From Opitutia bacterium (GTDB lineage: Bacteria; Verrucomicrobiota; Verrucomicrobiia; Opitutales; Opitutaceae), in contig CANGHW010000018.1 of the NCBI GenBank assembly GCA_947453695.1, forward strand, positions 1 to 64,000: a stretch of DNA of 64,000 bases, read 5' to 3'. Shown here one piece after another: positions 5,528 through 60,600 of the stretch. The notes beneath the pieces were generated by a model. The model saw only the letters and a program-made list of their open reading frames with translations, did no database searches and had not been told where the DNA came from. The position numbers and the translations under genes are program-made. Each line of letters begins with the position of its first letter. Position 1 is the first letter of the stretch.

Positions 5528-6925
5528 TTACTCGAGCGGGGTGGCGGCGAGGGCGCGGTCGAGCCGGGCGGCGGCGATCCAGAGCCGCATGCGGGTGATC
5601 TCGAGGTTGAGCCGCGCGGTGGTCAGGGTCTGGCGCGCATCGAGGAAGGCGAGTTGGTTGGCGAGGCCTTCCCGGTCGCGGGCGGAGACGATCTCGAAAG
5701 CGCGGGCGGCGGCGGCGGTGCGGCGGTCGGCGGCGGGGAAGGCGGCGCGGGCGGCGGCGAGTTCGCCGGTGGCGGTGCGGAGCTCGACGGCGAGTTGTTC
5801 GCGCACGGTTTCGAGGCGGAGCTCGACTTTGCGGCGCAGGGAGCGGGCGGCGTCGATCTCGTTGTTGCGTTGGCGACCATCCCAGAGATTGAACTCACCG
5901 ACGAGTGAGGCCTGGGCGTAGTTGAAGCCGTGGCCGGTGCGGTATTGCCCGCCCTGAATGCCGCCATCGGCGACGAAGGAAACGGTGGGGCGTTTGCGGG
6001 CGCGGACGGCGGCCTCGGCCTCGGAGGCTTCGTTCGCGGCGGCACGGAGAGCGGCGAGTTCCTCGCGGGACTCGGGGACGGAAATGGGGCCCACGTCGGA
6101 GGCCAGGAGGGTGGCGGTGAGCGCGGCGAGTTCGTCGGCGGTCGGGGTGTCGACCGCGGTGTCGAGCGGGCGATGCAGGAGGGCGTTAAACGTGGCGAGG
6201 GCGGCGATACGGTCGCGGGTGGCGTCGGCGAGCTGTTGTTTCACCGCGAGGTCGTCGGCCTCGGCGCGGAGAACGCGGTCTTCGGTGGCCTTGTCGGCGG
6301 AGAAGAGGGCGCGCGAGGTGCGCAGCGCCTCGGCGGTCAGCTCGGTGGCGCCGTTAAGGATCTGCTCGGCGGATTGCGCCCGCAGCGTGGTGTAGTAGGA
6401 GGTGAGAACACCTAGGCGAAGCTCGCGCCGGGCGGCGGCGTGCTGGGCGCTCGCGGATTCGACGGCGGAGCGGCGGGAGGCAGTCCAGCGCGAGAGCTCG
6501 GCGTTGAAGAGCGGGGCGCTGACGCGGAGTTTGGTCTCCTGCTCGCGTTCGCGCAGGAGCGGGATGGACAGGTTGTCGACGTGGGGGAAGCTGGCGGGTT
6601 TGCCGGCGGCGGTGAGGAGGGAATTGAGCGCGCCGTAAGCGGGATTGATGAGGTCACCGGAGGGGACGTCGATGGTGCGGCCGCCTTCGGCGCGCGAGTA
6701 GCGGGCAAGGAGGTCGACCCGGGGGAGGCGGGCGCCGGTGGTGGCGCCGAGGCGCGCACGTGCGGAGGAGACATCGAGGGCTTGCGACTGGAGGGCGAGG
6801 TTGTCGGCGAAAGCCTGGCGGACGTAACGCTCGGCGGCCGCCGGAGCGGGCAAGACTGGAGCGGCGAACGCGGCTGGCGCGCAGACGAAGAGTGATACGG
6901 CGAATAGCCGGAGGACGCGGCGCAT
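5528..6925 (-). CDS. TolC-family outer membrane efflux protein
   Basis: Signal peptide start MRRVLRLFAVSLFVCAPAAFA at about 6925; two helical TolC-like repeats; upstream of MFP and RND genes. Confidence 0.85.
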   Translation of the reverse strand: MRRVLRLFAVSLFVCAPAAFAAPVLPAPAAAERYVRQAFADNLALQSQALDVSSARARLGATTGARLPRVDLLARYSRAEGGRTIDVPSGDLINPAYGALNSLLTAAGKPASFPHVDNLSIPLLREREQETKLRVSAPLFNAELSRWTASRRSAVESASAQHAAARRELRLGVLTSYYTTLRAQSAEQILNGATELTAEALRTSRALFSADKATEDRVLRAEADDLAVKQQLADATRDRIAALATFNALLHRPLDTAVDTPTADELAALTATLLASDVGPISVPESREELAALRAAANEASEAEAAVRARKRPTVSFVADGGIQGGQYRTGHGFNYAQASLVGEFNLWDGRQRNNEIDAARSLRRKVELRLETVREQLAVELRTATGELAAARAAFPAADRRTAAAARAFEIVSARDREGLANQLAFLDARQTLTTARLNLEITRMRLWIAAARLDRALAATPLE

Positions 6926-7049
6926 GGTAGTGGGTGCGTCTAGGCGATGGGGCGTGTCAAATAATTTGTCGGCGCTTAGGGTAATTACCACGGCGGGAGC
7001 GTTAAATTATGTTGAGCGCGATGCGGCGAGATCGCTTTGTTACGGCGCT

Positions 7050-8180
7050 GTGGCTTCTCCGAAATTCGATGTGTTCCGTAGTCTGCCTGACGAGGCCGTG
7101 GAGAATTTGATCTCTGCGTTGCCTTCGCGCGCCTATGCCACGGGAGAGGTGCTGCTGCGCGAGAACCAGGCGAACAGCCGGGTATTCCTCATCGAGAGCG
7201 GTGAGCTGGACGTTTGGAAGGGTGAGCCCAAGACTCCGGGTGGAGTGAAATTAGTGACGCTGAAGCCGGGCAGTTGCTTCGGCGAGATGTCGGCGATCAA
7301 CGGGTCGGCGGCGACGGCCAACATCGTGGCGGCTTCGCCGGCGACTGTGCGGACGATGGGTTTGGACGACCTGCCGGCGGACGGTGCGGTGCAAAAACAG
7401 GTGACACTCAATCTGGCGCGGATGCTGGTGGACCGTCTCTCGAATGCGACGACTTCGCTGAAGTCGAAGCACGAGTCGGAGTTGGCGGCGATGAAGGTGG
7501 TGGCCTCGGCCTCCTCGTTCCTGACGCGCATTTTGACGGCGCTGTCGTGCTACATGTTTTCGCTGCCGCTGATCGAGGTCATCACACCGCTGGTGCCCTC
7601 GATCAACCTGATCTCCTTCTTCATCATAATGGTTTTTCTGTGGGTCGTGATCGACTTCATGAAGCGGAGTCAGATCCAGGACGAATTTTTCCACATGCAT
7701 TGGGATAACTGGCCGAAGCAGGCGTTGACCGGGGTCCTGTGGGCGGCGCCGTTCATGTTGCTGTTTCTCCTCGTGAAAGTTTGGTTGGTGCGGCGCGGCT
7801 CGGGCGAGATGCAAGTCTTCGAACCCATGCTCGAGTTTATTACCCGGCCGGGGACGACTTTCGTGTATTGGGGGGCGATCGCGGCTTCATATGCGACGCT
7901 GAGTTTCGCGCAGGAGTTCATCCGTTGTGCCGTGCAGGGCACGCTCGACATGGTGTCGATTCCGGCGACCAACAAGACGCATTGGAAGTCGATCTTGGTG
8001 TCGGACGTCGTGTTCGCCTCGATTCACATGTATCTCGGCAGCAAGTTTGCGTTCCTGGCGTTCATTGCCGGTCTGGCGTTCGGTTTTATGTTCTGGAAGG
8101 CGCGATCCTATCTGGCGGTGGCGACGGCGCACGCGCTGTTCGGCGTGTGGGCGATTTTCATTGTGGGGATTCCGCGCTGA
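7050..8180 (+). CDS. Cyclic-nucleotide-binding-like domain fused to CPBP (CAAX protease-like) membrane domain
   Basis: N-terminal FRSLPDEAVENLISALPSRAYATGEVLLRENQ...GSCFGEMSAINGSAATANIVA (CRP/cNMP fold); C-terminal QEFIRCAVQG / FASIH / HALFG resembling CPBP motifs. Start uncertain (GTG 7050 or upstream; ORF track start 6924). Confidence 0.7.
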   Translation: MASPKFDVFRSLPDEAVENLISALPSRAYATGEVLLRENQANSRVFLIESGELDVWKGEPKTPGGVKLVTLKPGSCFGEMSAINGSAATANIVAASPATVRTMGLDDLPADGAVQKQVTLNLARMLVDRLSNATTSLKSKHESELAAMKVVASASSFLTRILTALSCYMFSLPLIEVITPLVPSINLISFFIIMVFLWVVIDFMKRSQIQDEFFHMHWDNWPKQALTGVLWAAPFMLLFLLVKVWLVRRGSGEMQVFEPMLEFITRPGTTFVYWGAIAASYATLSFAQEFIRCAVQGTLDMVSIPATNKTHWKSILVSDVVFASIHMYLGSKFAFLAFIAGLAFGFMFWKARSYLAVATAHALFGVWAIFIVGIPR

Positions 8181-8934
8181 CCGTGCGCGGCTTCTGATCT
8201 GACGGGAGGGCGGCCGCGAACTGGGCGTGCACATCGGCGACGTGGCGGTCGAGGTTTTCGACGGTCCAGTCGGTCGTGGGGATGGGCGGGAGAATGCGCA
8301 CAGAGACGGCGGCGGGGCGGGTGTAGGCGCGACCGCGGGGCCAGCAGCGGTGGGCATTGCTCACGACGATGGGCACAACCGGAAGCCGCGTCGCTAGGGC
8401 GAGATGGGCGAAGCCGCGCTTAAACGCGAGCAGGCGGCCGTCGAAGGACCGGGTGCCCTCGGGCCATATCCAGACGGAGGTGCGAAAGCGCTGCATGAGG
8501 TCGATGGTCTCACGCAGGGCGGCAGCCGCATCGCGTTTATTGGTGCGGTTAATGAGAACGTTGCCGGAGAGCGCGTAGAGTTGGCCGAGAAACGGCACGA
8601 AGGCGGTCTCGCGTTTCGCGGTGGCGAGGGTGCCGGTGGGGGCCGCCCAGATGCCAAAATAGATGTCGAGGTAGGAGGTGTGGTTGGAGATGAAAATTGC
8701 GGGCTGGGTGCGGGCGAGTTGCGCGCGGATGCCGGGTGGGAGCTTCGCGCCGGAGAGAAAAATCATGACGCGGCCGGTGAGCTGGCCGTAAACGTTGGAG
8801 GCGAGAATACGGCGGCGGCGGCTGGGGAGCAGGACGAGGAAGACCGGAAAGAAGCAGGCGGAGATGAGGCCGAGGTAGGTCCAGCAAATGACGAAGCGCA
8901 GGGGAAGGACGAAAAAATCGAGGAGGCGGGCCAT
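8158..8934 (-). CDS. 1-acyl-sn-glycerol-3-phosphate acyltransferase (PlsC family)
   Basis: SNHTSYLDIYFG (NHxxxxD), WPEGTRSFDGRLLAFKRGFAHLA. Confidence 0.85.
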   Translation of the reverse strand: MARLLDFFVLPLRFVICWTYLGLISACFFPVFLVLLPSRRRRILASNVYGQLTGRVMIFLSGAKLPPGIRAQLARTQPAIFISNHTSYLDIYFGIWAAPTGTLATAKRETAFVPFLGQLYALSGNVLINRTNKRDAAAALRETIDLMQRFRTSVWIWPEGTRSFDGRLLAFKRGFAHLALATRLPVVPIVVSNAHRCWPRGRAYTRPAAVSVRILPPIPTTDWTVENLDRHVADVHAQFAAALPSDQKPRTVSAESPQ

Positions 8935-8972
8935 GCGGTGTCGCGCGGATAGGATTGAGCGGCGCGGGGGCG

Positions 8973-9461
8973 TCAAGCGGCGCCGGCGGGAGTGGAAATC
9001 AAAGCGTGAGTAAGCCACGCCACCGTCACTCCGAGCAGGGCACCGACGAAGACTTCCGTGCGAGTGTGGCCGAGGGATTCGGTGAGTTTGGCGGGCGGCG
9101 CCTCGTGTTTCCCGCGAGATTCCTCGGCGAGGCGGTTGAGGAGGCGGGCCTGGGCGCCGACGGACCGGCGCAGGCTTTGGGCGTCGATCATGACGAGGCT
9201 TACGAGGCCGAAGGCCACGGCAAAAACCGGCGAATCGAAGCCGGTGCGCAGGCCGACGGAGAGCGCACAGGCGGCCGCGGTGGAAGTATGGGAACTCGGC
9301 ATGCCGCCGTGTCGGTTGAGGAAATCGGCGTCGAAGCGTTTCTCGCGCACGGCGACGGTGAGGAGCTTGATCAGTTGGGCGGTCAAGTAAGCGGCGAAGG
9401 CGGCGATGATGGTGACGTTGTGGAGAAAGGCGGTGAGCATGAGGCGAAGAGGGAAAGGCAA
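8973..9461 (-). CDS. Divergent PAP2 family (DUF212) membrane protein
   Basis: RHGGMPSSHTSTAAACALSVGL...VMIDAQSLRRSVGAQARLLNRL. Confidence 0.85.
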   Translation of the reverse strand: MPFPLRLMLTAFLHNVTIIAAFAAYLTAQLIKLLTVAVREKRFDADFLNRHGGMPSSHTSTAAACALSVGLRTGFDSPVFAVAFGLVSLVMIDAQSLRRSVGAQARLLNRLAEESRGKHEAPPAKLTESLGHTRTEVFVGALLGVTVAWLTHALISTPAGAA

Positions 9462-10392: not shown

Positions 10393-11157
10393 ATGAAGTT
10401 CACTTCTCCTCCGACCTCGGCGGTGATTCTTGCCGCAGGCATGGGCGTCCGCCTCCGGGCCCTACAATCTGAACTGCCGAAAGGCCTGATCACGCTTGGT
10501 GGCGTCTCGTTGGTGCCTCGATCAATCGAGCTACTGCTGGCGGAAGGGGTGACGGACCTGGTGCTGGTGACGGGGTGGCGGGCGGAGGCCTATGAGAAAT
10601 TCCTCGCGGCGCATTTTCCCCGGGTGCGATGCGTGCACAATCCGGACTTCGCGACCACCGGTTCGATGCACTCGCTCTACCTCGCGCGGGAAGCGGGCAT
10701 CGCGGGAGATTTTTTGCTGCTGGAGTCGGACCTGCTCTACGAGCCGCGGGCTCTGCGGGAGCTCCGGGCGGCGCCACGGGGTGACTACGTGCTGCTCTCC
10801 GGCACGACAGGCCAGGGTGACGAAGTGTTTGCCTACGCGCGCGACGGCCGGTTGGCGGCGCTTTCGAAGCAGCGGCGGGCGGACGAGCCAGCCGCGGGCG
10901 AATTTACGGGAATCGGCCGCGTGACGGCGGATTTTTTTACAAAGTTGTGCACGCATTTCGAGGCGCGCGGGACGCTGGCGGCGGGCAACTACCACTACGA
11001 CGATGCCTTCACGGCGCTGGCGGCCACGCATCCGATTCAACTTCTGACCATCGAGGATCTCGTCTGGTGCGAGATTGACGATCCGGCGCATCACGCGCGC
11101 GCGTTGCAACGCGTGCTGCCGCAGTTGAGCAAGATTTCCCATGACGGTGCCGCGTAA
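10393..11157 (+). CDS. Nucleotidyltransferase, PntC/LicC-like (putative CTP:phosphonate cytidylyltransferase)
   Basis: AVILAAGMGVRLRALQSELPKGLITLGG and NPDFATTGSMHSLYLAR; followed with a 17-nt overlap by phnW. Confidence 0.75.
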   Translation: MKFTSPPTSAVILAAGMGVRLRALQSELPKGLITLGGVSLVPRSIELLLAEGVTDLVLVTGWRAEAYEKFLAAHFPRVRCVHNPDFATTGSMHSLYLAREAGIAGDFLLLESDLLYEPRALRELRAAPRGDYVLLSGTTGQGDEVFAYARDGRLAALSKQRRADEPAAGEFTGIGRVTADFFTKLCTHFEARGTLAAGNYHYDDAFTALAATHPIQLLTIEDLVWCEIDDPAHHARALQRVLPQLSKISHDGAA

Positions 11158-12271
11158 GATCCTCCTCAATCCGGGACCGTGCACGACGACCGAGCGCGTA
11201 AAGGCCGCGCTCGTGATGTCGGATCTTTGTCCGCGGGAGAAAGAGTTCGGTGCGCTGCTCGCGCGTGTGCGCCGCGACCTTGTGCGCGTGGCGCATGCGG
11301 AGGCCACGCACACGGCGGTCCTGATCGGCGGATCGGGCACGGCGGCAGTGGAGGCGGTGCTCGCGTCGTGCGTGGGACCAGCGGACCGCGTCTTGATCGT
11401 GGACAACGGGGCCTACGGCCGTCGTGCGGCGCAGATCGCGCAGGTGCACGGCCTCGCGCACCGCACGCTGGCGTTGGGTTGGGCCGAATATCCTGCGCTG
11501 GAGCGCATCGCGGCGGCGCTCGCGGAGACGCCTGGCTGCACGCACTGTTTTCTGGTCCATCACGAGACGACGACCGGGATGCTCAACCCGCTCGCCGAAG
11601 TCGCGGCGCTGTGCCGCGCGCGTGGAATATCGCTGATCGTGGACGCGATGTCGTCCCTCGGCGGCGTGCCGCTCGATGTGCGCGCGACACCGGCGGACTA
11701 CGTGATCAGCTCGGCAAACAAGTGCCTGCAAGGGATGCCGGGGCTGGCCTTTGTGATCGCCGACCGGACGGCGCTCGCCCGCACGGCGGCGGTGCCGCGG
11801 CGCTGCGTCTACCTCGACCTGCACGGGCAGGCCCGGGCGCAGGACGAAGAAGAGCAGTTTTGGTTTACGCCGCCGGTGCAGGTGTTGAATGCGCTCGCCG
11901 TGGCGCTGGAGGAGTATTTTGCCGAGGGAGAGCGGGCGCGGTTTGCGCGCTACGCGGCGTGTCACGGACGGCTCGTCGCAGGCTTGGAGGCACTGGGCTT
12001 CGTGCCGCTCGTGCCGCCGCCGTGGCGTTCGGGTCTGCTGACCGCGTTGCACGAGCCGACCGACCCGGCGTGGAGTTTCGATGCGCTGCACGATTGGCTC
12101 TACGCTCGCGGCGTCACGATCTACCCGGGAAAAATCGCGGCGACGCGGACGTTTCGCGTGGCGACGATCGGCGATCTTCAGCCCGCCGACATCGACACGG
12201 TGCTGGAGCACGTGCGGGAATTTTGTGCGGTGCGCGGTCTGCTGCTCCGCACTCCGGGGAAAAATCTATGA
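11141..12271 (+). CDS. phnW: 2-aminoethylphosphonate-pyruvate transaminase
   Basis: ILLNPGPCTTTERVKAALVMSDLCPREKEFG..., SANKCLQGMPGLAFVIA; located in a phosphonate gene set. Confidence 0.88.
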   Translation: MTVPRKILLNPGPCTTTERVKAALVMSDLCPREKEFGALLARVRRDLVRVAHAEATHTAVLIGGSGTAAVEAVLASCVGPADRVLIVDNGAYGRRAAQIAQVHGLAHRTLALGWAEYPALERIAAALAETPGCTHCFLVHHETTTGMLNPLAEVAALCRARGISLIVDAMSSLGGVPLDVRATPADYVISSANKCLQGMPGLAFVIADRTALARTAAVPRRCVYLDLHGQARAQDEEEQFWFTPPVQVLNALAVALEEYFAEGERARFARYAACHGRLVAGLEALGFVPLVPPPWRSGLLTALHEPTDPAWSFDALHDWLYARGVTIYPGKIAATRTFRVATIGDLQPADIDTVLEHVREFCAVRGLLLRTPGKNL

Positions 12272-13272
12272 GCACCGAACCTTTGCCGCCCTACGTTTAC
12301 CGCTGCGAAGATCGGTCCGTTTTGCTGGAGCCCTACAAGCGATGGGTGGTCCCGCTCTGGCGGTGGTGGGTGCCGCGTTGGCTGCCGGCCAACCTGATCA
12401 CCCTTGGTTCGAGTGCGTGCATGTGGGTGGTGTTTGGACTCTCGTTCAACGTCTCGGCTTTCAGCGTAACGACGCTGGTGGTGGCGATTCTCGCGCTCAC
12501 GCAGGCGTTCCTCGCCTATGACCACATCGACGGCATGCAGGCGAAAGCGACCGGCACGAGTTCGGCATTGGGAGAATATTTGGATCATTCGCTCGACACC
12601 TATCATGGGGCGATCCTCACCCTGTCCACGGTCGTGCTGATCGGCTCCGTGCCAGTGTCGGCCGCGATGATTTCGCTGTCGGCCGGATTCGTGGCGTTTG
12701 CCGCGACGATGGTGGAGGAGAAGGAGCGCGGGCAGTTGTTCTTCGGCTGGTTTGGCGCGGTCGAGTCGATGTTCCTGTTCATCTGTTTCTACGGATCGTG
12801 GCTGTTTCCGCCGGTGCGGGCATGGTGGGTCGCTCCGCTCTTCGGCGACTGGCCGGCCTACTGGATTCTGATCGGAATGGGCGTCTTCGGCTGCATCGGC
12901 GTGACGCTGGATTGTCTGCGCCGCATCGGGCGGCTGCCGCTGCAACTGGCGGTTTTCATCGGGCTCAACCTCTCGCTGGCGGTGGCGCTGGGGAAATTGA
13001 ATGCTCCGTTCTGGTGTCTGGTCGTGGCGATCTTCCTGCATGGCGGTGACTATGTGGGCCGCGTAATCGGCTCCCACTTGTTGCGCCGGCCGCACGTCTG
13101 GCCGGATTTCATCGCGCCGCTCCTCGCGGTGGCGCTCCTCTTCGGACCGTCTTGGCTCATGGTGTTGCTGCTCGGCTGGCTCGCGCTGCGCACGGCCTGG
13201 GGCGTCTGGAATGTAGTCTATCCCCTGCGTGGCAATTGGCGTTGGAAGAACCCGCCGCCGAAGCCCGCCTAA
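12268..13272 (+). CDS. CDP-alcohol phosphotransferase family protein
   Basis: ATG at 12268; DGMQAKATGTSSALGEYLDHSLD matches DGx2A[R/K]x8Gx3Dx3D; multiple TM segments. Confidence 0.85.
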   Translation: MSTEPLPPYVYRCEDRSVLLEPYKRWVVPLWRWWVPRWLPANLITLGSSACMWVVFGLSFNVSAFSVTTLVVAILALTQAFLAYDHIDGMQAKATGTSSALGEYLDHSLDTYHGAILTLSTVVLIGSVPVSAAMISLSAGFVAFAATMVEEKERGQLFFGWFGAVESMFLFICFYGSWLFPPVRAWWVAPLFGDWPAYWILIGMGVFGCIGVTLDCLRRIGRLPLQLAVFIGLNLSLAVALGKLNAPFWCLVVAIFLHGGDYVGRVIGSHLLRRPHVWPDFIAPLLAVALLFGPSWLMVLLLGWLALRTAWGVWNVVYPLRGNWRWKNPPPKPA

Positions 13273-13282
13273 TTTTTCCCGC

Positions 13283-14902
13283 ATGTCTTCTCCCCGCAAA
13301 ACCACGGCGCTCCGACGCCTCATCGAAAGTCCCGAGCTGACGTTTGTCATCGAGGCTCACAACGGCCTTTCGGCCAAGATCGCGACGGAGGCCGGGTTCC
13401 CGGCGCTGTGGGCGTCGAGCCTCACGCTCTCGGCCGCGCTCGGCGTGCGCGACAATAACGAAATCTCCTGGACGCAGGTGGCGGAGCAGGTGGAGCTGAT
13501 GTGCGACGCGACGAGCGTCCCCATCCTCGTCGACGGCGACAGCGGTCACGGCGATTTCAATATTGTGCGCCGGCTCGTCGCGAAGCTCGGCCAGCGCGGG
13601 GCCGCGGGCATTTGCCTCGAAGACAAACTGTTTCCCAAGACCAACAGCTTTCTGCGCAGCGAGCAGCAGCCGCTGGCGGAGGCGGAGGAGTTTGCCGGCA
13701 AGCTCAAGGCGGCCATCGATGCGCGCCCGGATGGTGACTTCGTGGTGATTGCGCGCACGGAAGCGCTGATCGCGGGCCGCGGCATGGCCGAGGCGCTGCG
13801 TCGCGCCGAGATCTACCGCCAGGCGGGCGTGCACGCGGTGGTGATCCACAGCAAATCGGCGAAACCGGACGAAGTGTTTGCCTTCATGCGCGAGTGGGGC
13901 GGCCGGTTGCCCGTCGTGCTCATCCCGACGAAATATCATGCGACGCCGGCGGCGGCGTTTCGCGCCAACCACGTGTCGATGGTGATCTGGGCCAATCAAC
14001 TCATGCGCGGTGCGACGACCCGCATGCAGGAACTCGCGGCCCAGATTCGCCGCGAAGAATCCATCGTGAGCGTCGAGGACACCATCGCGCCGATGGCGGA
14101 GATTTTCCGCCTGCAAGGCGACGCGGAGCTCGCCGAGGCCGAGCAGCGGTATTTGCGCGGCGGGTCCGGTGGCCACCGCGGGATCATCCTGGCGGCGACG
14201 CGCGGCGACCTGCCGGAGGCGCTCACCGGCGGCGCGCCCAAGGCGCTGCTTAAGGTCGGGCACGCGAGCATCCTCGAGCGGCTGGTGACGACGTTGCGCG
14301 CGCATGAAGTGCGCGATCTCACAGTCGTCGCAGGCTACAAAAAGGAGATGATCGCGCTCCCGGGTGTTAACCGGATCGACAACGACGCCTACGCGACCAC
14401 CGGCGAACTCGCCTCGCTTGCAGCCGCACTGGCGTCGGCCACCGGGGAGACGATCGTGGCTTTTGGCGACATTTTGTTTCGCGGCTACATCGCGGGGCTG
14501 CTGCTGCACGACGGGGCCGATGCGGCGATCGCCGTGGACACCCGTTTCCGCGAAAGGGGAGGCGCCGGGCGCAGTTCGGATTTCGTGCGCCTCAAGCGTC
14601 CTCCCGGGGCGCGCGACTACCTTGACGACGAAGAGGCCTGGCTCGAGCGCGTGGAGTTTGCCGCGCCGAGCGAAGAGTTTCATGGCGAGTGGATCGGGCT
14701 GCTCAAGCTCTCGGCGCGTGGCGTCGAGCTGGCGCGCGAGTTTGTCGCCGCACGTCGCGCCGACGGCACGCTCGCGCAACTTCAGCTCGTCGACCTGCTC
14801 AACCACTTCGCCGGCGTCGTCGGCGTGAAGGTTCACTGCATCCAGGGGCACTGGACGGACGTGGATTCGTTGGTTGATCTCGACCGGGCGCAGCAGTTCT
14901 AA
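13283..14902 (+). CDS. Phosphoenolpyruvate mutase fused to a C-terminal nucleotidyltransferase-like domain
   Basis: N-terminal LEDKLFPKTNSF (EDKxxxxxNS PEP mutase motif); C-terminal RGIILAATRGDLPEALTGGAPKALLKVG...NDAYATTGELASL. Confidence 0.88.
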   Translation: MSSPRKTTALRRLIESPELTFVIEAHNGLSAKIATEAGFPALWASSLTLSAALGVRDNNEISWTQVAEQVELMCDATSVPILVDGDSGHGDFNIVRRLVAKLGQRGAAGICLEDKLFPKTNSFLRSEQQPLAEAEEFAGKLKAAIDARPDGDFVVIARTEALIAGRGMAEALRRAEIYRQAGVHAVVIHSKSAKPDEVFAFMREWGGRLPVVLIPTKYHATPAAAFRANHVSMVIWANQLMRGATTRMQELAAQIRREESIVSVEDTIAPMAEIFRLQGDAELAEAEQRYLRGGSGGHRGIILAATRGDLPEALTGGAPKALLKVGHASILERLVTTLRAHEVRDLTVVAGYKKEMIALPGVNRIDNDAYATTGELASLAAALASATGETIVAFGDILFRGYIAGLLLHDGADAAIAVDTRFRERGGAGRSSDFVRLKRPPGARDYLDDEEAWLERVEFAAPSEEFHGEWIGLLKLSARGVELAREFVAARRADGTLAQLQLVDLLNHFAGVVGVKVHCIQGHWTDVDSLVDLDRAQQF

Positions 14903-14911
14903 GTCTCCGCC

Positions 14912-16075
14912 GTGATCACCGCCTCCGAATTTCTTCGCGCCTGTCATGCGCGCGGGCTGCGCTCTTTCACCGGCACCCCCTGTTCGTATCTCAAGCCCCT
15001 GATCAACGGTGCGCTCAACGACGGGACCCTCGGGTTTCGCGACGCAGTGAATGAGGGTGACGCGGTGGCACTCGCGGCCGGTGCCACGATCGCGACCGGA
15101 GCGCCGGGCGTCGTAATGTTTCAAAATTCAGGTCTCGGCAATGCGGTGAACGCGCTGACGTCGTTGAACTGGCCCGGCAAAATCCCGGTGCTGCTCATCG
15201 TGACGCATCGCGGCGAGCCCGGCGGTCCGGCCGACGAGCCCCAACACGAGTTGATGGGGGCAATCACTACCACGCTGCTCGACACCATGCGCGTGCCGTG
15301 GATCCCGTTTCCCGCCAGCGCCGCCGAGATCGAGCCGGCACTCGCGCGGGCGCAGGCGCATTTCGCAGCGCACTCGCTGCCGTTTGCGCTCGTGATGCCG
15401 CACGGTGCGGTGGCGGAGACGCCGCTGACGACCGCGCGTCCGACTGCGCCGCTCGGCGCGCGCGCCTTTGCGTTTGAAGAGAACTTGCCGCTCCCGACGA
15501 CCGCGCGCGCGACCCGGGCCGAAGCTTTGACGGCGCTGCTCGCGGCGAAGCGTCCCGACGATGTGGTGGTGGCGACGACGGGCTACACCGGCCGCGAACT
15601 GTTCACGCTCGGCGACGCGTCGAACCACCTCTACCTCGTCGGCGCGATGGGCGGTGCGAGTGCGCTCGGCCTCGGCCTTGCCTTGAATCTGCCCGAGCGC
15701 CGTGTGTGGGTGGCCGATGGTGACGGCGCGGTGCTCATGCGCATGGGCAATCTCGCGATGGTGGGTGCCCACGCGCCGCGCAACCTATTCCACCTCGTGA
15801 TCGACAACGAGGCGCACGATTCCACCGGCGGACAGGCGACCTTGAGTCGCGGCGCGGCGTTCGGCGCAATTGCACAGGCGTGTGGATATTCGCGCGCGGT
15901 GGGCACCGACGACACCGCGCGACTGACCGAGGAACTCGCGGCCCACACACCGCAGCGCGGCCCGACGCTCGTGCATTTTCGTGCGCGCACCGGCACGCTG
16001 GCGAAGTTGGGCCGGCCGACGATTTCGCCCGTTGAAGTGAAGCTCCGTCTGATGCGCCAACTCGGCTCCGCGTAG
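14912..16075 (+). CDS. Phosphonopyruvate decarboxylase
   Basis: TPP-enzyme fold: FTGTPCSYLKPLINGAL, NEGDAVALAAGA, FQNSGLGNAVNALTSL, VWVADGDGAVLMRMGNLAMVG, NEAHDSTGGQ. Confidence 0.88.
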   Translation: MITASEFLRACHARGLRSFTGTPCSYLKPLINGALNDGTLGFRDAVNEGDAVALAAGATIATGAPGVVMFQNSGLGNAVNALTSLNWPGKIPVLLIVTHRGEPGGPADEPQHELMGAITTTLLDTMRVPWIPFPASAAEIEPALARAQAHFAAHSLPFALVMPHGAVAETPLTTARPTAPLGARAFAFEENLPLPTTARATRAEALTALLAAKRPDDVVVATTGYTGRELFTLGDASNHLYLVGAMGGASALGLGLALNLPERRVWVADGDGAVLMRMGNLAMVGAHAPRNLFHLVIDNEAHDSTGGQATLSRGAAFGAIAQACGYSRAVGTDDTARLTEELAAHTPQRGPTLVHFRARTGTLAKLGRPTISPVEVKLRLMRQLGSA

Positions 16076-51459: not shown

Positions 51460-52233
51460 TCAGTCACTTTCCTGTTTAAGCAATCTCAAGAATTTCGCTA
51501 CGCACGCGACTACATCCGGTGCCTGGGTTTGCAGAAAAAAGTGGCCGCCGGGGAAAAACTCCGAAGTGAAGCCGCCGGTGGCGTGCAATTGCCATGCGAG
51601 CAATTCGGCGCGCAGAACGTGGCGATCGTCTTCGCCGCCGAGAGCGAGCAGGGGGAGTGAGAGCTTTGGCTCCTCAGTGGGGCGATAGGTTTCGTAGGCC
51701 GTCAGGTCTGCGCGTAAGGCCGGCAGAAACAAGGCCAGGAACTCGGGGTTCGCGCGCACGGCTGCCGGAATCCCGCCGTAACGTTGATCGACTTCAGCGA
51801 CGAGTTGGTCGTCCGCGAGTCGGTGAAGATCGGTTTCGCGACGCGGGGTTCCGGGCGCCCGCGCACCGCTGACGATCAGACCGGCCGGTCCGGGCAAGCC
51901 CCGAGCGCGGAGCGCACGAGCGACTTCGAAGGCCAGTAGAGCGCCAAAGCTGTGGCCGCAGAATACGAAGGTCTGGTCGGGATACGGTGCCAGCTCGTCG
52001 GCGAGTGCCGAGGTCAAGTGATGCACCGCGCTGAGCGGAGTTTCGGCGAGCCGGTTCTCGCGACCCGGCAGCCGAACCGCCACCACCTCAGCCGCGGTGG
52101 CAAGGTGAGCAGACCAGTTGTGCCACGCGGCGGCTCCACCGCCCGCGAACGGGAAGCACCAAAGCCGCACAGGCACGGCGCTGTTGGGGCGTGGGCAACT
52201 GAGCCACTTGCTGGGGGCGAGAGGAAGTAGCAT
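51460..52233 (-). CDS. Type II thioesterase (NRPS/PKS-associated)
   Basis: RLWCFPFAGGGAAAWHNW, FVFCGHSFGALLAFEVARAL, FFPGGHFFLQ. Confidence 0.9.
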   Translation of the reverse strand: MLLPLAPSKWLSCPRPNSAVPVRLWCFPFAGGGAAAWHNWSAHLATAAEVVAVRLPGRENRLAETPLSAVHHLTSALADELAPYPDQTFVFCGHSFGALLAFEVARALRARGLPGPAGLIVSGARAPGTPRRETDLHRLADDQLVAEVDQRYGGIPAAVRANPEFLALFLPALRADLTAYETYRPTEEPKLSLPLLALGGEDDRHVLRAELLAWQLHATGGFTSEFFPGGHFFLQTQAPDVVACVAKFLRLLKQESD

Positions 52234-52247
52234 TGAGCCCGAGACGA

Positions 52248-52466
52248 CTACCGACGTGCGTCGGCTGCCATTTTTTGGCGCAGGCTAAGGGGGCGCATGT
52301 CCGTCCATACTTCCTTGATGTAGGCGAGGCACTCCTCCTTCGAACCAGATTTTCCAGCGTCACGCCAGCCCGGCGGATTGTCGCGATAGGACGGCCAGAT
52401 TGAGTATTGCTCTTCGTGATTGAGGACGACTTTGAAAATCTCGGGCGTGATTTCGGTAGGGTTCAT
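52248..52466 (-). CDS. MbtH-like protein
   Basis: [53 protein letters not shown]. Confidence 0.92.
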
Positions 52467-52614
52467 GGAGGACGGCCTAGGGCGGCGGGCAATTTCGAGG
52501 GTGTCGATATGCGGCGCGGGACTGAGGTGGCCAGCACAAACTGTCGCCGCCTTGACATGGTTTGGCCGCTGTCGGCATATCACTGCAAACGAGCGGAGGG
52601 ATCCTTCGCTATTC

Positions 52615-53952
52615 ATGAAAACAGCCACCCGCCATCTTCTCGAGTTTCTGTTGGTCATCGCGTTGGCGGTGTCGCTATGTTTTGCTTGGTGGCACTGGTC
52701 GCGTCCGGTGCTGAGGTTATATATCTGGAATGATTATATTTACCCCGACGTGATCGCCGATTTCGAAAATGAATTTAATGTGCGAGTTGAGGTTAAGAAC
52801 TACCGCAGCAACGAGGAAATGTTGGCTCGGGTGAAGGTAAGTTGGAACGAATTCGATGTGATTATGCCATCGAATCACCTTGTGCGGGGGATGCGGCGGC
52901 AAGGTTTGCTGGCCAGGCTCTCAGGCAGCGTGCTGGAGAACAGGAGCCGGATCGATCCGAGGTATTTTGACGGGCCCAAGCAAGCCGCGCAGGCCGTGAA
53001 AGACGCGAAAGCGGCGAAAGCCGCAGCCGCGAAAGCCGCGAAAGGCCAGAAGGCTTCGTTGCTGCAGGCCGCCATGGAACCGGGTGCGAATTCCGAAGCA
53101 CCGCAGGAGAGTGCGGTTGATCTCGGGCGCGACGAAGATTATGCCCTGCCCTATCTTTGGAATTGTTTGGGGATTGGATATTCGAAAACGGAGTTTCCGG
53201 GGACGAAAACGGACGATAAGCCTCTGCCGCCCCAGACTTGGAGAGATTTTTTTTCCAACGAGGTAGGGTCGAAGTTCGGTCAACGCCGAATGTTGACAGC
53301 GGAGAAACGCGAGTTGGTTGGACTCGCTTTGATTGCGTCGGGAAAGTCGCCCAATTCGATCGACCGAGCGGAGATCAGGGAGGCCGGTCGCCTTTTGAAA
53401 CCGCAAGTGCTAGCGGACAAGCCGCGCCTCGTATGGGATGACGGTGGCCAGCAACTGCAAAACGGCTCGGGAGTTTTGTTGCAGACCTGGGCTCCCGAGA
53501 TTACGCGGCTGATCGCAGACGTTCCTGCAGGCGTAGCAGGTGACCGGTCGTGGGTGGCCAAGAATTGGCAGCGAGCCGAGAATTGGGTGTCACGCTTGTT
53601 TGTCTCCGCGGAACAGGAAGCGATTCTGCACCCCGAGATTGGCTACAAGCTGCCGGAAGATGGGTCGATCATCACGATCGATACGTTGGCTATTCCGGCC
53701 TCGTCCGGCAATCAGGTGCTCGCACAGGAGTTCATTAATTTCCTGCTGAGGAAAGAGATCGCAAAACGGGTCACAAGGGATAGCTTCTACGGCAATACGC
53801 TTCTGGCCGGGGTGGATGAATCATTGAAAAACACGCCTTCCTATATGGTGCCGGCGAAGACAAACTACCTCGTCGATGTAGACGATGCGCAGCTCTACTA
53901 TGACGGAGTTTGGGCGGAATTTACGCGGATAATGAACGATAGTAACCGCTAG
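52615..53952 (+). CDS. PotD/PotF-like extracellular solute-binding protein
   Basis: [41 protein letters not shown]...[15 protein letters not shown]-terminal membrane anchor. Confidence 0.83.
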
Positions 53953-53989
53953 CTCCGGGTGCGGCAATCCAGTGCTGGTCCGATGGGGT

Positions 53990-54931
53990 TCATTTTGGGC
54001 TCGCCCCTTCGGCATTCAAGATCAGCGGCAAACCGTCCTTGCCGGAACCCACCACTACGACCTTTGAATTGGGAGATTTGGCGAGTTCGAGGGTGGCTTC
54101 GATTCCCTTGTAACGGAGTAACTCCGGGGTGAGGCTGCCGGAAATCGTCGTGTTGTATTTATTGATACCTTCGGCTTCGGTCTCAAGACGGGTTTTTTCG
54201 GCTGCGGCCCGCTGTTGGCGGAATAAGTATTCTTCGGCCATTTGCTCCTGCATCAGCTTACTCTCGATCGCGTTGGTCACGAGATTCGGGAGGCGGATGT
54301 TGATGATATTAATGTCGTCGAGCTGGATGAACTTCTGGCTGAGGCTGCGCGTGGCGGCCTCGATGATCTGGTCGGAAATCTCGGTGGTATTCAGGGTGTA
54401 GAGTTGGGCAGGTTCAAATTTCCCGACGACTTCACGCACGCCGGTCATCACCTCCGGCACGACAATGCGATCGGCATAGTCGGGCCCAATTCTTTGGTGC
54501 AACCACGGGAGGTTTTTCTCTTCCGGAAAATAACGCATGGAGACGGTCACACGGACGGTGAGACCGTTCTTGCTGAGCGCTTCCACGAGCTGGGTGCGCT
54601 CCTGCACGCGCATGGTGTAAATGAACATCGTGTTCCAAGGCGCGATGATCACCAAGCCCTCCTTGTAAGCGTGCGACGTTTCGGTGCCGTCGGTGAGCCG
54701 GCGAAACAGCACCCCTTCTTCGCCGGGGCCGATGAGAATGAAGATTCGGTTGGCGAGATAGACGACGAGAAAGGAAAAGATAAGGCCGCCGAGGCACAGA
54801 GGCACGATATTCTCGCGGGCCTTGAGGCGGAGACGCTCGATCCAAGCATCCAGATTTTGCCGCCAGACGGGCGGCGCGGAAGGGGCCGGGGAAGCAGGGG
54901 CCGGGGTGCCGGCAGGAGGAACGGGGCTCAT
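53990..54931 (-). CDS. SPFH/prohibitin-like membrane protein
   Basis: IGPGEEGVLFRRLTDGTETSHAYKEGLVIIAPWNTMFIYTMRVQERTQLVEALSKNGLTVRVTVSMRY. Confidence 0.85.
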   Translation of the reverse strand: MSPVPPAGTPAPASPAPSAPPVWRQNLDAWIERLRLKARENIVPLCLGGLIFSFLVVYLANRIFILIGPGEEGVLFRRLTDGTETSHAYKEGLVIIAPWNTMFIYTMRVQERTQLVEALSKNGLTVRVTVSMRYFPEEKNLPWLHQRIGPDYADRIVVPEVMTGVREVVGKFEPAQLYTLNTTEISDQIIEAATRSLSQKFIQLDDINIINIRLPNLVTNAIESKLMQEQMAEEYLFRQQRAAAEKTRLETEAEGINKYNTTISGSLTPELLRYKGIEATLELAKSPNSKVVVVGSGKDGLPLILNAEGASPK

Positions 54932-54934
54932 AGG

Positions 54935-56584
54935 TCAGTTGGTGTTGGCGGCAGGGGCGGTGGGCTGGACTTGGCCATACTCCATCTTGATCACACGGTC
55001 TGCGCAGTGAAAATACCGGTCGTCGTGGGTGATGGCGATGACGGTCTTGCCCGCCGCCTTCAGTTCGGGCAAAAGGGTCTCGTAAAAGAAACGGCGGAAT
55101 TCCGGATCTTGGTCGGCGGCGAATTCGTCCAAAGCGATCACGGGGCGGTCTTCGAGGAAGGCGACAATGAGAGCCAGACGTTTCTTCTGGCCGGTCGAGA
55201 GACTTAAATGCGTGAAGCGCCCGTTGGTGTAAGCAGTTTTCTCGTCGAGTTCCATGCGGGTGAGAAGCTGTGCGAGCCGCTTCTCGTCGACGTTGGTTTG
55301 CCCGTAGAGTCGGTCAAACAGGTGAAAATCGGTGAAGACGATGGAAAAAAGTTCGCGATAGCCGGCATAGTGCGAGGCCTGGAGGCGGACGCCGTCGACG
55401 AGCAGGGCACCACTCTGTGGCGCGTAGAGCCCGGTGAGCAGTTTCATCAGCGTGGACTTGCCGGAGCCGTTTCCGCCGACGATGAAGACCGTCTCGCCCG
55501 CAGCGAACGAGAGCCGAAACGGGCCAACCGAAAAGGCGGGCCGGCCTGTCATCTCGTCGAGATAGGAAAACGTCGCATCCTCGATCACGATTTCCTTGAA
55601 GCCGGTGAAATCGATGCGGGCCGGGGCGACCATGCGCTCGGCGGCCGCGATGGGCGAATCGAGGAATTCCTCCAACTTCGTGAGGTTGCCGAGCGCGACG
55701 CTGGCGCGGGCGTAGATTGGGATGGAGCTGACCAACGAGGTGAGCGGGCCAATGATGAAGAGAACCACGGCGGTCGTTTTCACGATCACATCTGCGTAGC
55801 CCTCGTTCAGGGCGGGCAGGAGAAAGACGAGCACGGCGATCAGGATGTAGAAAAAAGTTTGGGAGAAGATGAAGTTGCGGACGTATTCGAGCCCCGTGCG
55901 GATTTTTACCCGTTCGGCGTCTGCGCAGATGCGCTTGAAATGGTTCTCAAAGAGATCGTCGGACTTGGCCTGGTTGACCTTCAGCTCCTTGAAGCCGTCC
56001 ATGAGATGACCGAGCGAGACGAAGAACTCGGTTTCCTTCTCGGTGGCCTGCTGGAGTTCGCGGTTGATGAGGCGTTGATTGCGCAGATAAATGGCGATGC
56101 CGCCCATGATCATGGCGGCAGTCAGCATGAACGCGACCTTGGAGAGGACGGCGAGGTAAGCGACGCAGACAACGATCATCACGGCGGACTGGGCGGCGTT
56201 GGCGATTTCGCCGGCGGCCTGCGATAGAGTGAGGGTGTCCTGGGAAAGTCGCGTCTCGACGTTGGCTTTGCCGATCCGCTCGACGACCGCAAGGTTGGAG
56301 CGGCGGAGTTTGTCGGCAATACGCACGCGTAATTTGGCGATTACTTCCTCGGCCAAAACAAAGGACCTTTCGAGGGCGACGCGTTTGGCGAGGATGAAGA
56401 TCGTGATCGCGATCACGAAGAGTAGCAGATTCCGAAAATTGAGATCCGCGAACGCGGCGGTGGCGGCGGCGTTGTTGATGATCGACAACAGCAAGCCCTG
56501 CGCGACGCCTGAAACAACGGTGAGGACGAGCAATGTCTGGAGCGACGTGGTGCTCTCTTTTTTGATAAGTTTGAGAAGTTGCAT
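54935..56584 (-). CDS. Cyclic-peptide/siderophore export-type ABC transporter (SyrD/PvdE-like fused TMD-NBD)
   Basis: VFIVGGNGSGKSTLMKLLTGLY Walker A; LSTGQKKRLALIVAFLEDRPVIALDEFAADQDPEFR. Confidence 0.88.
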   Translation of the reverse strand: MQLLKLIKKESTTSLQTLLVLTVVSGVAQGLLLSIINNAAATAAFADLNFRNLLLFVIAITIFILAKRVALERSFVLAEEVIAKLRVRIADKLRRSNLAVVERIGKANVETRLSQDTLTLSQAAGEIANAAQSAVMIVVCVAYLAVLSKVAFMLTAAMIMGGIAIYLRNQRLINRELQQATEKETEFFVSLGHLMDGFKELKVNQAKSDDLFENHFKRICADAERVKIRTGLEYVRNFIFSQTFFYILIAVLVFLLPALNEGYADVIVKTTAVVLFIIGPLTSLVSSIPIYARASVALGNLTKLEEFLDSPIAAAERMVAPARIDFTGFKEIVIEDATFSYLDEMTGRPAFSVGPFRLSFAAGETVFIVGGNGSGKSTLMKLLTGLYAPQSGALLVDGVRLQASHYAGYRELFSIVFTDFHLFDRLYGQTNVDEKRLAQLLTRMELDEKTAYTNGRFTHLSLSTGQKKRLALIVAFLEDRPVIALDEFAADQDPEFRRFFYETLLPELKAAGKTVIAITHDDRYFHCADRVIKMEYGQVQPTAPAANTN

Positions 56585-56757
56585 GGCGCGCCGCCGATCA
56601 AATCAAGGTCGGCGAGCGAGCAAGCCGAGGGCCGTCGGGTTAATCAAGTGCCGAGTTTGCGGACGGCGAGGGGTGTGAGCAGGCGGCTCGGGACGACGGT
56701 TTCTACGCTGCAAAGAACGCTAGACAGCGATTCGCCGGGTTGGCTGAATCTTACGCC

Positions 56758-57615
56758 ATGACAGCTGCCACCGGCTTCCCATCCATCACAGGACGAGTCT
56801 ATTCTGCGGAGTATTTCCGCATTGGCGAATTCACCCGCCTCGACCCGCGCGAGATTGTCCGAGTGATGCGCGGCGAGGTAGCAGGCTGTATTTTCCGCCA
56901 GGCGATGGACTCGGCGTTGTGCCAACGCATTTGCGACAATTTCTGGAAACACCCGCAGAAACGGCAGCGGGGAGATGCGGTGCCCGCCTACTACCTGGGC
57001 ACCTATCACTATGCGAAAGATCTTTCGCTCTATCTCGACGAAGCGGCGGCGACGAGTGCGGCGGTGCACGACGTGTTTGACGGTGGACGCAATGTGTTCG
57101 ACGAGTTGATGGCGGAGGTTCGCGCCGAACTCGCGAGCAGTGGAGTGGGCCTGCGGGTCGCGCGGCACCAGGGACGCGATGCCGGCGAGTTTGTCATCCG
57201 GTCTTGGAGCGGTGGCGGTAAATTCGCGCTCGCGGCGCACGACGATGCGGCGCAGCTCAGCGCCAAGCAACAGGCTGGTTTCGAGATTCAGGACGTCGCG
57301 CGGAATCCGTTGGCGGCGGTCAATATGTGCCTGCAAAACGGCGCGGCCGGCGGCAACTTGGTGTATTGGAACATCGAGCCGGACTCGAACACGCGGCGCG
57401 CCCTCGGGCTGGAGGAAACCGGTTATCCCTACCAAGCGGAGTGGCTCGACAAGTTTGACCGCATCGATTTGCCGGTTCACGCGGGCGACATTTATTTCTT
57501 CAACGGCAAGCTGATCCATGCCGTGCAGGCCCAGGCCAATCCGGGCGAGTATCGCTCGACGATTTCGTTTCTGATGGGGTTTAGAGATCCGCAGACGGCG
57601 ATCTACTGGACCTGA
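56758..57615 (+). CDS. Putative Fe(II)/2-oxoglutarate-dependent oxygenase-like protein
   Basis: KFALAAHDDAAQL (HxD) and distal FFNGKLIHAVQAQANPGEYRSTISFLMGF (H...R). Start uncertain (56740 or 56758). Confidence 0.65.
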   Translation: MTAATGFPSITGRVYSAEYFRIGEFTRLDPREIVRVMRGEVAGCIFRQAMDSALCQRICDNFWKHPQKRQRGDAVPAYYLGTYHYAKDLSLYLDEAAATSAAVHDVFDGGRNVFDELMAEVRAELASSGVGLRVARHQGRDAGEFVIRSWSGGGKFALAAHDDAAQLSAKQQAGFEIQDVARNPLAAVNMCLQNGAAGGNLVYWNIEPDSNTRRALGLEETGYPYQAEWLDKFDRIDLPVHAGDIYFFNGKLIHAVQAQANPGEYRSTISFLMGFRDPQTAIYWT

Positions 57616-57619
57616 GCAG

Positions 57620-60600
57620 TTACGCGCGTTTCGCTGCGAGGAGGCGCTGGACGTCGGCGGCTGACATGCGGCTGACGCGCAGGTGCACGCGGGCCATCGC
57701 CTCGGCACGGCCGGGTTTGTCCGCGCCTTGATCGATCAACGCCCCGAGGGCGGCGGAAAACTTCGCGACGGTTGGCGCCTCGAAGAGCAACCGCAGTGGC
57801 GGCTCCACCCGGAAAACTTCCGAGACGCGCCACATCACCTGGGTGGCGAGCAGGGAGTGGCCGCCCAGGTCGAAAAAATCGTCCTCTGCGCCGATGCGGC
57901 CATTTTTCAAGACGGCGCCCCAGAGGCCGGCGATGGTTTCTTCCAGCGGCGTGCGGGGCGAGATGTGCCGGCGGGCGGCGGCGGTGCCAGTGCCGAGTGA
58001 GCGGAGGGCGGCGCGGTCGACTTTGTTGTGGGCCGTCAGCGGGAACTCCGGTACCAGCACGATACCGGCGGGGACCATAAAGTCGGGGAGGCGTTCGCGC
58101 ACGTGTTCGCGCAGAGCGTCGTCGGTCGGAGCCGTCAGGCCGGGCCGCGGCTGCACGTAGGCCACCAGCCGTTTGTCTCCCGGGCGCGTTTCGTGGACCA
58201 GTATCAGGGTTTCCTTCACGCCCGGGTGGGCGGCGAGACAGCTCTCGATCTCGCCTAGTTCGATGCGGAACCCCCGGACTTTGACCTGGAAGTCGCGCCG
58301 ACCGAGGAATTCCACCGTGCCGTCGGGCATCCAGCGGGCGAGATCGCCGGTCTTGTAAACGCGTTCACCCGGCATAACGGGAAACGGGTGGGGGACGAAG
58401 CATTCGGCGGTAAGGCCGGGGAGCAACAGGTAGCCGCGCGCGTTGCCGTCACCGCCGATATAGAGATCGCCCGGCACACCGATCGGCACGGGTTGCATTT
58501 CCCGGTCGAGGATCAGCAGGGTGGTGTTCGAGATGGGCGGCCCGATCGTGACGGTGTAGCCGACGTCTTCGGGCCGGCGCAACAGGCCGCAACTCGCAAA
58601 CGTCGTAGTCTCGGTGGGGCCGTAGCCGTTGATGAGCGTAAGCCCGGGGTGCGCCGCGAGCACGCTGCGGGCGTGGGGCACGGAAATGATGTCCCCGCCC
58701 ACGAGGAGGTGGCGCACGCCGTGAAACGCTTCGATGCGTTCATCGACCATCAGGTTGAACAACGCCGAAGTCAGATAGAGTGAAGTGATGCGGTGTCGCT
58801 GGATTTCCTCGCCGAGCTCGCGGAGCGAAGGTGCGCCGGCGCGGAGCACGACGAGGAGTGCGCCGTTGCAGAGCGCACCCCATAGTTCAAATGTCGAGGC
58901 ATCGAACGAGACGGGCGCGAGTTCGAGGATGCGGAGGTCCGGGCCGTAAGGGAGATAGTTGGTGTCGCGCACGAGGCGCACGACGCCGCGGTGCGGAATG
59001 CAGATGCCCTTGGGCCGGCCGGTCGATCCCGACGTGTAAGTCGTGTAAGCGAGGTTGTCGGGCACGGTGACGTTCGGCAGATTCTCGGGCGACTCCGCCA
59101 GCAGGTCGGGGGCATCGAGGACCACCGCGAGAAACGGCACGTTGGTCGCCGGCATGCGGGCCGCGGCGTCAGCCGGGGCGAGGAGCAGGCGGGCCTGCAC
59201 CTGATCGAAGAGAAAATTAAGCCGCTCGGCCGGATCGGCCGGATCGAAGGGGAGGTAGTGTCCGCCTGCCTTCAACACAGCTACGAGCGCCACGACCATT
59301 TCGAGGGTGCGTTCGGCGCAGACGGCGACACCGACATCGGCGCCGACGCCGCGCGCCCGCAGCAGGCGCGCGAGCCGATTGGAGGCGGAATTCAATGCGG
59401 CGTAAGTGAGCGTGCGTTCGCCGGCGGTGACGGCAGGCGCTTCCGGGTTCGCGGCCGCACAGGCTTCAAATAATTCGTGAACGCACCGATCACGCGGGTA
59501 GGCCGTCGTCGTGGCGTTCCACTCGCGGAGGAGTTGGTGGCGTTCTGCCGCGTCGAGCAAGGGGAGGAGTGCAATACGCGTCGTGGGTGCCGCGGCGGCG
59601 TGAGTGAGCAGCGCGCGGAAATTCCCCATCATGCGTCCGATGGTCGCCGACTCGAACAGATCGCGGCTGTATTCGACGCCGACCAGCAGGCCTTCGCGGG
59701 TGTCCTCAATGAAGACGGTCAGATCAAACCGGGCCGTGAACCCGGGGACGTTGAGTTGTTCGAGGGTGAGGCCGGCGCCGAGCTGCAGCGCTTCGCGGTG
59801 AGTTTGCAGGAGGGAGAAACAGACCTGGAAGAGCGGGTTTTGGCTCATCGTGCGGTCGGGCCGCACAGCTTCGATGATGCGTTCGAGCGGGGTCTCAGCG
59901 TGGGCGTAGGCGGCGGTGGCGGTGGCGCGGGTGCGACGGAGGACTTCGGCAAACGTCGGATCGCCGCCGAGCGGCGTGCGCAACGCGAGCGTGTTGGTCA
60001 GGAAGCCCACGAGCGGTTCCAGGCTGGGATGCGCGCGGTTGGCAATCGAGGTGCCGACGGCAAAATCCGTCTGGCCCGTGTAGCGGAACAAAAGACTGTT
60101 CCACCCGGCGAGCAGCACTTGGAAGAGCGTTGCACCCTCGCGGCGGGCGACGTCGCCCAAGGCGCGGGTGAGGTCGGGCGGAAAGGTGAAATATTCCGTG
60201 GCTCCTGAGTAGGTCATCGCGGGCGGACGGGGATGATCGGTCGCCAGGTTGAGGACGGGTGCGTCGGCCAGCGTGCGTTGCCAAAAAGCCAAACTTTCTG
60301 CCGCCGAAGGAGCGGCCAGTCGCTCGGATTGCCACGCGACATAATCGGCAAACTGCACGGGCATGTCGGGCAATCCGGCTGCATGGCCGGTGGTCTCAGC
60401 GCGGTAGAGTGCGGCGAGGTCGCGCACGATTACGCCCGAAGACCAACCGTCGGAGACGAGGTGGTGGATCGTGAAAACAAACACGGCCTCGCCGGGCTCA
60501 GTCACGAGTAAAGTGGTGCGCAGCAGAGGAGCGCGGGTGAGATCGAAGGCCTTCGTCGCCTCGGCACCGAGGCGGTCACGGAGCGCCTGTTCGCGGGCTG

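Follow-up and report, generated by a model that had tools for sequence, protein, structure and literature searches.

A five-gene operon of an Opitutaceae bacterium as a probable phosphonate version of the Kennedy pathway with a CEPT1-like final transferase

The stretch of DNA analysed here (the window; 64,000 nucleotides, positions 1 to 64,000 of contig CANGHW010000018.1, Opitutia bacterium assembly GCA_947453695.1, family Opitutaceae) bears five ORFs at 10393-16075, all on the + strand, which encode a PntC-like cytidylyltransferase, the 2-aminoethylphosphonate (AEP) transaminase PhnW, a CDP-alcohol phosphotransferase (CDP-AP), a phosphoenolpyruvate (PEP) mutase fused to a nucleotidyltransferase domain and a phosphonopyruvate decarboxylase (Ppd). 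Comparisons of the sequences and of a predicted structure indicate that this operon is probably a phosphonate version of the Kennedy pathway, which would place AEP onto a membrane lipid, most likely diacylglycerol. In the proposed route, PEP mutase would convert phosphoenolpyruvate to phosphonopyruvate, Ppd would decarboxylate it to phosphonoacetaldehyde and PhnW would aminate the latter to AEP, which PntC would couple with CTP to give CMP-AEP. The CDP-AP would then move the AEP group from CMP to the free hydroxyl of the lipid, yielding a C-P analogue of phosphatidylethanolamine (PE). The identities of the enzymes, the packing of the operon and the class II signature and fold of the transferase are given by sequence and structure comparison; we infer the fluxes, CMP-AEP as the donor, diacylglycerol as the acceptor and all that would follow CMP-AEP. 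The genome is a 6.38 Mb draft of 356 contigs (completeness 93, contamination 2.7), and the contig that bears the window is 66,070 bases long, nearly all of it within the window.

The interpretation of the cluster turns on the CDP-AP, which scores 31.4 bits against PF01066 (cut-off 22) and whose significant solved relatives by sequence are without exception eukaryotic choline/ethanolamine phosphotransferases (CEPT1/CHPT1). Its signature reads D85xxD88GxxAK...G102 E103 xx D106 H107 xx D110 (GExxDHxxD), with AK in place of the AR of the eukaryotic enzymes. The extra Glu and His have been assigned to activating the diacylglycerol hydroxyl and are highly conserved in eukaryotic CDP-APs, while they are absent in most bacterial ones (PMC10182977). 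An AlphaFold2 model built from ten aligned relatives (mean pLDDT 91.5, pTM 0.89) matched four PDB entries below 0.001, all of CEPT1/CHPT1 type, with TM(query) of 0.77 for human CEPT1, 0.74 for Xenopus CHPT1, 0.78 for human CHPT1 and 0.69 for a diacylglycerol-bound cholinephosphotransferase, over 349-372 columns. Class I enzymes (AF2299, IPCT-DIPPS, PIP synthases and PgsA) reached 0.35-0.40 over approximately 183-205 columns, about half of the chain. The CEPT1/CHPT1 match thus extends over the whole chain of the model, where the second (dimerisation) half is present beside the catalytic six-transmembrane half. Predicted strands at 12-15 and 156-159, compared by location only, appear in keeping with the two-stranded sheet that CHPT1 has and class I enzymes lack (PMC10182977). 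Class II CDP-APs combine a polar CDP donor with a lipophilic acceptor (PMC10156783), and since the eukaryotic enzymes of this class pair such a donor with diacylglycerol, a phosphonolipid would be the best reading of the window CDP-AP. A preliminary description of this DNA had assigned to the CDP-AP the transfer of the AEP head group to lipid, with which both the GExxDHxxD signature and the full-length fold of the model agree.

Concerning the supply of AEP, its synthesis by the gene set is well supported by the sequences. PhnW (TIGR03301, 420.5 bits against a cut-off of 360.8), PEP mutase (TIGR02320, 333.6 against 319.6) and Ppd (TIGR03297, 385.7 against 312.5) all exceed the cut-offs of curated NCBIfam models, in line with the three-enzyme route to AEP of the preliminary description. 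PEP mutase contains the EDKxxxxxNS motif (as EDKLFPKTNS), which separates PEP mutases from their isocitrate lyase relatives (PMC6697681), and its closest solved protein is the PEP mutase 1M1B (E = 9e-102). The C-terminal domain fused to it (PF12804, 45.8 bits, cut-off 27) has lost the Gly and Arg of the first motif (LAATRGD for LAAGxGxR) and has kept the PK Lys and the FGD-motif Asp. A like change, AA[ST]RG, runs across the verrucomicrobial PEP mutases compared, that of genome G279 also being without the PK lysine (G numbers denote compared genomes, G000 being that of the window), and this domain may be specialised or inactive. A fused domain along with a separate PntC is also the layout of the oral anaerobes Treponema denticola and Atopobium rimae (PMC6697681).

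The formation of CMP-AEP by PntC is also well supported at the sequence level. The protein scores 49 bits against PF12804 (cut-off 27), and its nearest solved protein by sequence is the PntC-AEPT of Treponema denticola (6PD1, E = 2e-36), far ahead of the phosphocholine enzyme LicC (2e-12). Changes of R15, K25 or K153 in the T. denticola enzyme (Tde-PntC) cut its activity (PMC6697681); the window protein keeps these catalytic residues as R20, K30 and the Lys of 'LSK', together with the GxGxR...PK motif and with E111, which corresponds to Tde-PntC E104 near the AEP amine. The earlier proposal of CTP activation of AEP by a PntC-like enzyme is strengthened by these data.

The five-gene observation is far beyond chance. 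Re-reading of the sequence found the ORFs at the positions previously given and bore out the account of five + strand genes with overlaps or gaps of about 10 bp: PntC and PhnW overlap by 17 nt (11141-11157) and PhnW and CDP-AP by 4 nt (ATGA, 12268-12271), followed by gaps of 10 nt between CDP-AP and PEP mutase and 9 nt between PEP mutase and Ppd. The CDP-AP start was set at ATG 12268, a longer mechanical ORF (11179-13272) being set aside, and that of the PEP mutase fusion at ATG 13283 rather than GTG 13229. The preliminary description had likened the 17-nt overlap to the fused PntC-AEPT of Treponema as a pairing of PntC with the CDP-AP; the overlap is real, but the genes that it joins are PntC and PhnW, and it is the counterpart of the Treponema fusion because 'AEPT' there stands for AEP transaminase (PMC6697681). 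The same two genes overlap by 4 nt in G165. A promoter and terminator scan gave nothing above shuffled expectation, so that transcription as a single unit is suggested by the gene packing only.

Searching the genome contigs with the CDP-AP alone led to three loci, and all three genomes also have a PEP mutase-nucleotidyltransferase fusion, on other contigs; the nearest relatives belong to genomes named 'Verrucomicrobia bacterium' and 'Opitutaceae bacterium'. The CDP-AP was not found in any of eight same-genus genomes at E<=0.001, which makes the gene patchy. A search of 72,556 plasmids gave no match to it. The gene-order comparison put forward in the preliminary description shows both clustered and divided arrangements. 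All five genes share one cluster in G349, along with GT4, Stealth and exporter genes, while in G057 PntC (65%) and CDP-AP (60%) form an isolated pair with a 4-nt overlap and PhnW, PEP mutase and Ppd lie elsewhere. G058 has PntC, PhnW, PEP mutase and Ppd together and the CDP-AP (50%) on another contig, where it adjoins a myo-inositol-1-phosphate synthase and a phosphatidylinositol-synthase-like CDP-AP. The AEP module and the PntC/CDP-AP module thus seem to behave as units that are shuffled in relatives, yet keep company. In a tree of ten CDP-APs the window protein groups with that of G057 (support 91/88), and the PEP mutase-positive members do not all fall in one clade. A class sample of 335 genomes was also screened, with the line drawn at E<=1e-60 for the CDP-AP and the PEP mutase fusion and at E<=1e-40 for PntC. 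PntC orthologues occur in three of these genomes (G000, G349 and G165), each time beside PEP mutase, Ppd and PhnW, and PntC appears to be a tighter marker than the CDP-AP. In G165 (L090:4592-8937) the PEP mutase has a cytidylyltransferase-like part fused at its N-terminus and is followed by Ppd, PntC and PhnW, with no CDP-AP nearby.

Several points weigh against transfer of AEP to diacylglycerol. The case for it is built on sequence and structure comparison. At the position of E196, the second Tde-PntC residue close to the AEP amine, the window protein has Asp, as does LicC. The donor specificity of the CDP-AP cannot be read from its sequence; CEPT1 binds choline through a Glu that the family does not conserve, and an LLEP Glu that the window protein does have is not kept throughout its relatives. 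Co-occurrence in the class sample is modest, since the CDP-AP is present in five genomes, the PEP mutase fusion in seven and both in two, that is, in 2/5 of those with the CDP-AP (p ~0.005 with the own genome and 0.08 without it, both rough values, as G165 was added by hand with a different PEP mutase fusion below the 1e-60 line and similar cases may be uncounted). Furthermore, G099, G120 and G186 carry the CDP-AP (~40%) but lack PntC and any PEP mutase that passes the curated cut-off. From relatives in such genomes it appears that the subfamily is not AEP-specific and can use another donor, and its use as a reliable marker of AEP lipids was rejected on account of these three. In these genomes the CDP-AP gene is part of a conserved cluster that also holds GT4, Stealth and TolC/HlyD/ABC-type export genes (the exporter genes being named from sequence reading), joined by LicD in G186, and the acceptor there could be a glycan or a special lipid. 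Such neighbours suggest a glycan or glycolipid route, and an acceptor of this kind may, going by the relatives, apply to the window cluster as well.

The likeliest of the rival explanations is that a glycan, glycolipid or lipid-linked sugar receives AEP in place of plain diacylglycerol, the CDP-AP acting like a surface-decorating phosphotransferase. Apart from G099, G120 and G186, the CDP-AP subfamily is found in a like cluster in G130, and the shared cluster of G349 and the inositol-related neighbours in G058 point the same way, as does a membrane-glycosyltransferase-like protein encoded downstream of the cluster on the other strand of the window (PF13231, E = 7e-4, which does not reach the curated cut-off). 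The window cluster, however, has no GT4, Stealth, LicD or exporter neighbour downstream or immediately upstream, and the PntC-CDP-AP pair of G057 has no neighbour of the GT4, Stealth, LicD or ABC exporter kinds; moreover, the class II signature and fold are those of enzymes with a diacylglycerol acceptor. We regard this explanation as rather unlikely. Production of an ordinary phospholipid from CDP-ethanolamine or CDP-choline, with the place of the gene in the operon being incidental, would fit the CDP-AP relatives that occur where PEP mutase and PntC are missing, but is improbable given that the CDP-AP overlaps PhnW and is coupled directly to PntC in G057. The own genome also has PssA and Psd, the ordinary PE route, so the CDP-AP is not needed for ordinary PE, and there is no second PntC/LicC-like cytidylyltransferase in that genome at E<=1e-6, the PEP mutase-fused domain excepted.

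PEP mutase clusters also yield antibiotics, and non-ribosomal peptide synthetase (NRPS) and acyl-AMP ligase genes are located at 51-66 kb; a diffusible phosphonate small molecule is nevertheless a very improbable product here, as these genes are 35 kb off, no tailoring or resistance genes occur within the cluster and its central gene encodes an integral membrane transferase. Degradation of AEP in place of its synthesis could be considered because PhnW also works in AEP catabolism, yet PEP mutase and Ppd are enzymes of the biosynthetic route and the cluster has no phosphonatase gene, which leaves this idea a negligible likelihood. The class II CDP-AP and the lack of adjoining GT4, Stealth, LicD or exporter genes speak for the view of the preliminary description, in which the product would be a phosphonolipid or other membrane AEP conjugate and not a diffusible antibiotic. 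A hydroxylated form of AEP, considered for the PhyH gene that adjoins the G349 and G057 clusters, was not adopted, the own genome having only a weak match elsewhere (31%, E = 3e-5). The features of the cluster are listed in Table 1.

Table 1. Genes, domains and motifs of the window cluster.
Feature	Position	Strand	Basis
PntC-like CTP:2-AEP cytidylyltransferase, 254 aa	10393..11157	+	PF12804; best PDB match 6PD1
PhnW/AepZ, 2-aminoethylphosphonate transaminase, 376 aa	11141..12271	+	TIGR03301
Class II (CEPT1/CHPT1-like) CDP-AP, 334 aa	12268..13272	+	PF01066, eukaryotic solved relatives, model
CDP-AP catalytic signature, residues 85-110, DHIDGMQAK...GEYLDHSLD	12520..12597	+	D1xxD2GxxA(R)...G2ExxD3HxxD4, R -> K
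PEP mutase (~1-292) fused to MobA-like nucleotidyltransferase domain (~299-539)	13283..14902	+	TIGR02320; 1M1B
PEP mutase motif EDKLFPKTNS	13619..13648	+	EDKxxxxxNS motif in translation
C-terminal fused nucleotidyltransferase domain, altered first motif (LAATRGD for LAAGxGxR)	14177..14899	+	PF12804
Phosphonopyruvate decarboxylase (Ppd), 387 aa, GTG start	14912..16075	+	TIGR03297

Regarding the neighbourhood, a divergent pair just upstream of the cluster (8158-9461, - strand) encodes a PlsC-like acyltransferase (TIGR00530, 100.3 bits, just under the cut-off) and a DUF212 divergent PAP2 protein, which are lipid-related, yet were not found beside the clusters of relatives. A protein with cNMP-binding and Rce1-like protease parts is encoded at 6924-8180 (+ strand), ~2.2 kb upstream of PntC, and G057 has a 48% relative of it (L064:14625-15803) several kb from its PntC-CDP-AP pair, which may reflect either an old linkage or coincidence. 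The NRPS region extends over 51460-64000 and continues in L016 (51-66 kb); besides NRPS genes it holds thioesterase, ABC and acyl-AMP ligase (FAAL-like, DIP2-type) genes, and the ligase has a 47% relative located directly upstream of PntC in G058 (L033:1-4209). The own genome also holds a second CEPT1-like paralogue (32%; contig C251, L014:701-1750), which forms, with L017:8215-9333 of G014, a long-branched CEPT1-like subfamily that keeps GExxDHxxD, and the G014 copy adjoins a ketoacyl synthase and an inositol-1-phosphate-synthase-like gene. Finally, a conserved Opitutaceae cluster (L049, L050, L051 and L052) combines a CEPT1-like CDP-AP with GT4, Stealth, a VTT-domain protein and TolC/HlyD/ABC-type export genes and has no PEP mutase; it would make a surface conjugate from some CDP-alcohol.

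The logic of the pathway has already been proposed, and the difference here is the Kennedy-type, CEPT1-like final transferase. A phosphonolipid cluster of a lichen Nostoc and of Burkholderia comprises, according to PMC5987646 (citing Yu et al. 2013), CDP-AP, NTP transferase, PEP mutase, Ppd, AEP transaminase and an HpnL-like protein; the window shares the core gene set including the CDP-AP, the comparison with Nostoc being one by description. In the annotated records of Mycetohabitans rhizoxinica and Roseomonas marmotae, the clusters have in common with the window the PEP mutase-NTP transferase fusion, Ppd, AEP transaminase, a separate PntC/LicC-like cytidylyltransferase and a CDP-AP. Their CDP-APs, however, are class I-like (231 and 200 aa) with the motifs GHFYDLAAD and GHRYDLVSD, which have neither the signature Glu nor the His, whereas that of the window is CEPT1-like with 334 aa. 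An LPG_synthase-domain (HpnL-like) protein in both and a 2-oxoglutarate (2OG) oxygenase in Mycetohabitans have no equivalent beside the window cluster. Within the class of the window, the PEP mutase neighbour in G088 is 373 aa long and has a CDP-AP domain at its C-terminus, again without GExxDHxxD. As the CDP-APs of these three lack the signature, the window cluster follows a known logic with another subclass of transferase.

The Pnt pathway of T. denticola and Atopobium rimae (PMC6697681) shares PEP mutase, Ppd, AEP transaminase and PntC with the window, but the clusters of these oral anaerobes have LicD-like or glycosyltransferase neighbours, and no CDP-AP is mentioned in the available text of that paper. 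T. denticola also has a CDP-choline pathway with a 1,2-diacylglycerol cholinephosphotransferase, as described in PMC6805115. Compared by description only, this route resembles that of the window in that a CTP-activated head group would be transferred by a CDP-AP to diacylglycerol, and differs in that its head group is phosphocholine and not a phosphonate. Eukaryotic CEPT1, CHPT1 and EPT1 share with the window CDP-AP the full-length fold, D1xxD2GxxA..G2ExxD3HxxD4 and the cytidine-binding Asn; the window enzyme is bacterial, with 16-18% identity to the Kennedy transferases in structural alignment, AK for AR and CMP-AEP as its presumed donor. Our literature searches found no description of a CEPT1-like final enzyme in this pathway, and nothing joining phosphonolipid, CDP-alcohol and phosphonate biosynthesis, or Opitutaceae and phosphonate biosynthesis.

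Almost nothing is known of the biosynthesis of phosphonylated glycans and lipids in bacteria (PMC6697681), and the window offers a complete candidate route in five genes and 5.7 kb, the last enzyme of which falls in a transferase class with a well-characterised mechanism. On balance, we lean towards the view that in some Opitutaceae and relatives a CEPT1-type transferase puts AEP on diacylglycerol, its pairing with PntC having allowed a switch from a CDP-alcohol donor to CMP-AEP. The solved members of the full-length CEPT1 type are all eukaryotic, and bacterial full-length counterparts of CEPT1/CHPT1 bear on the origin of the eukaryotic Kennedy enzymes and on how these enzymes choose their head group.

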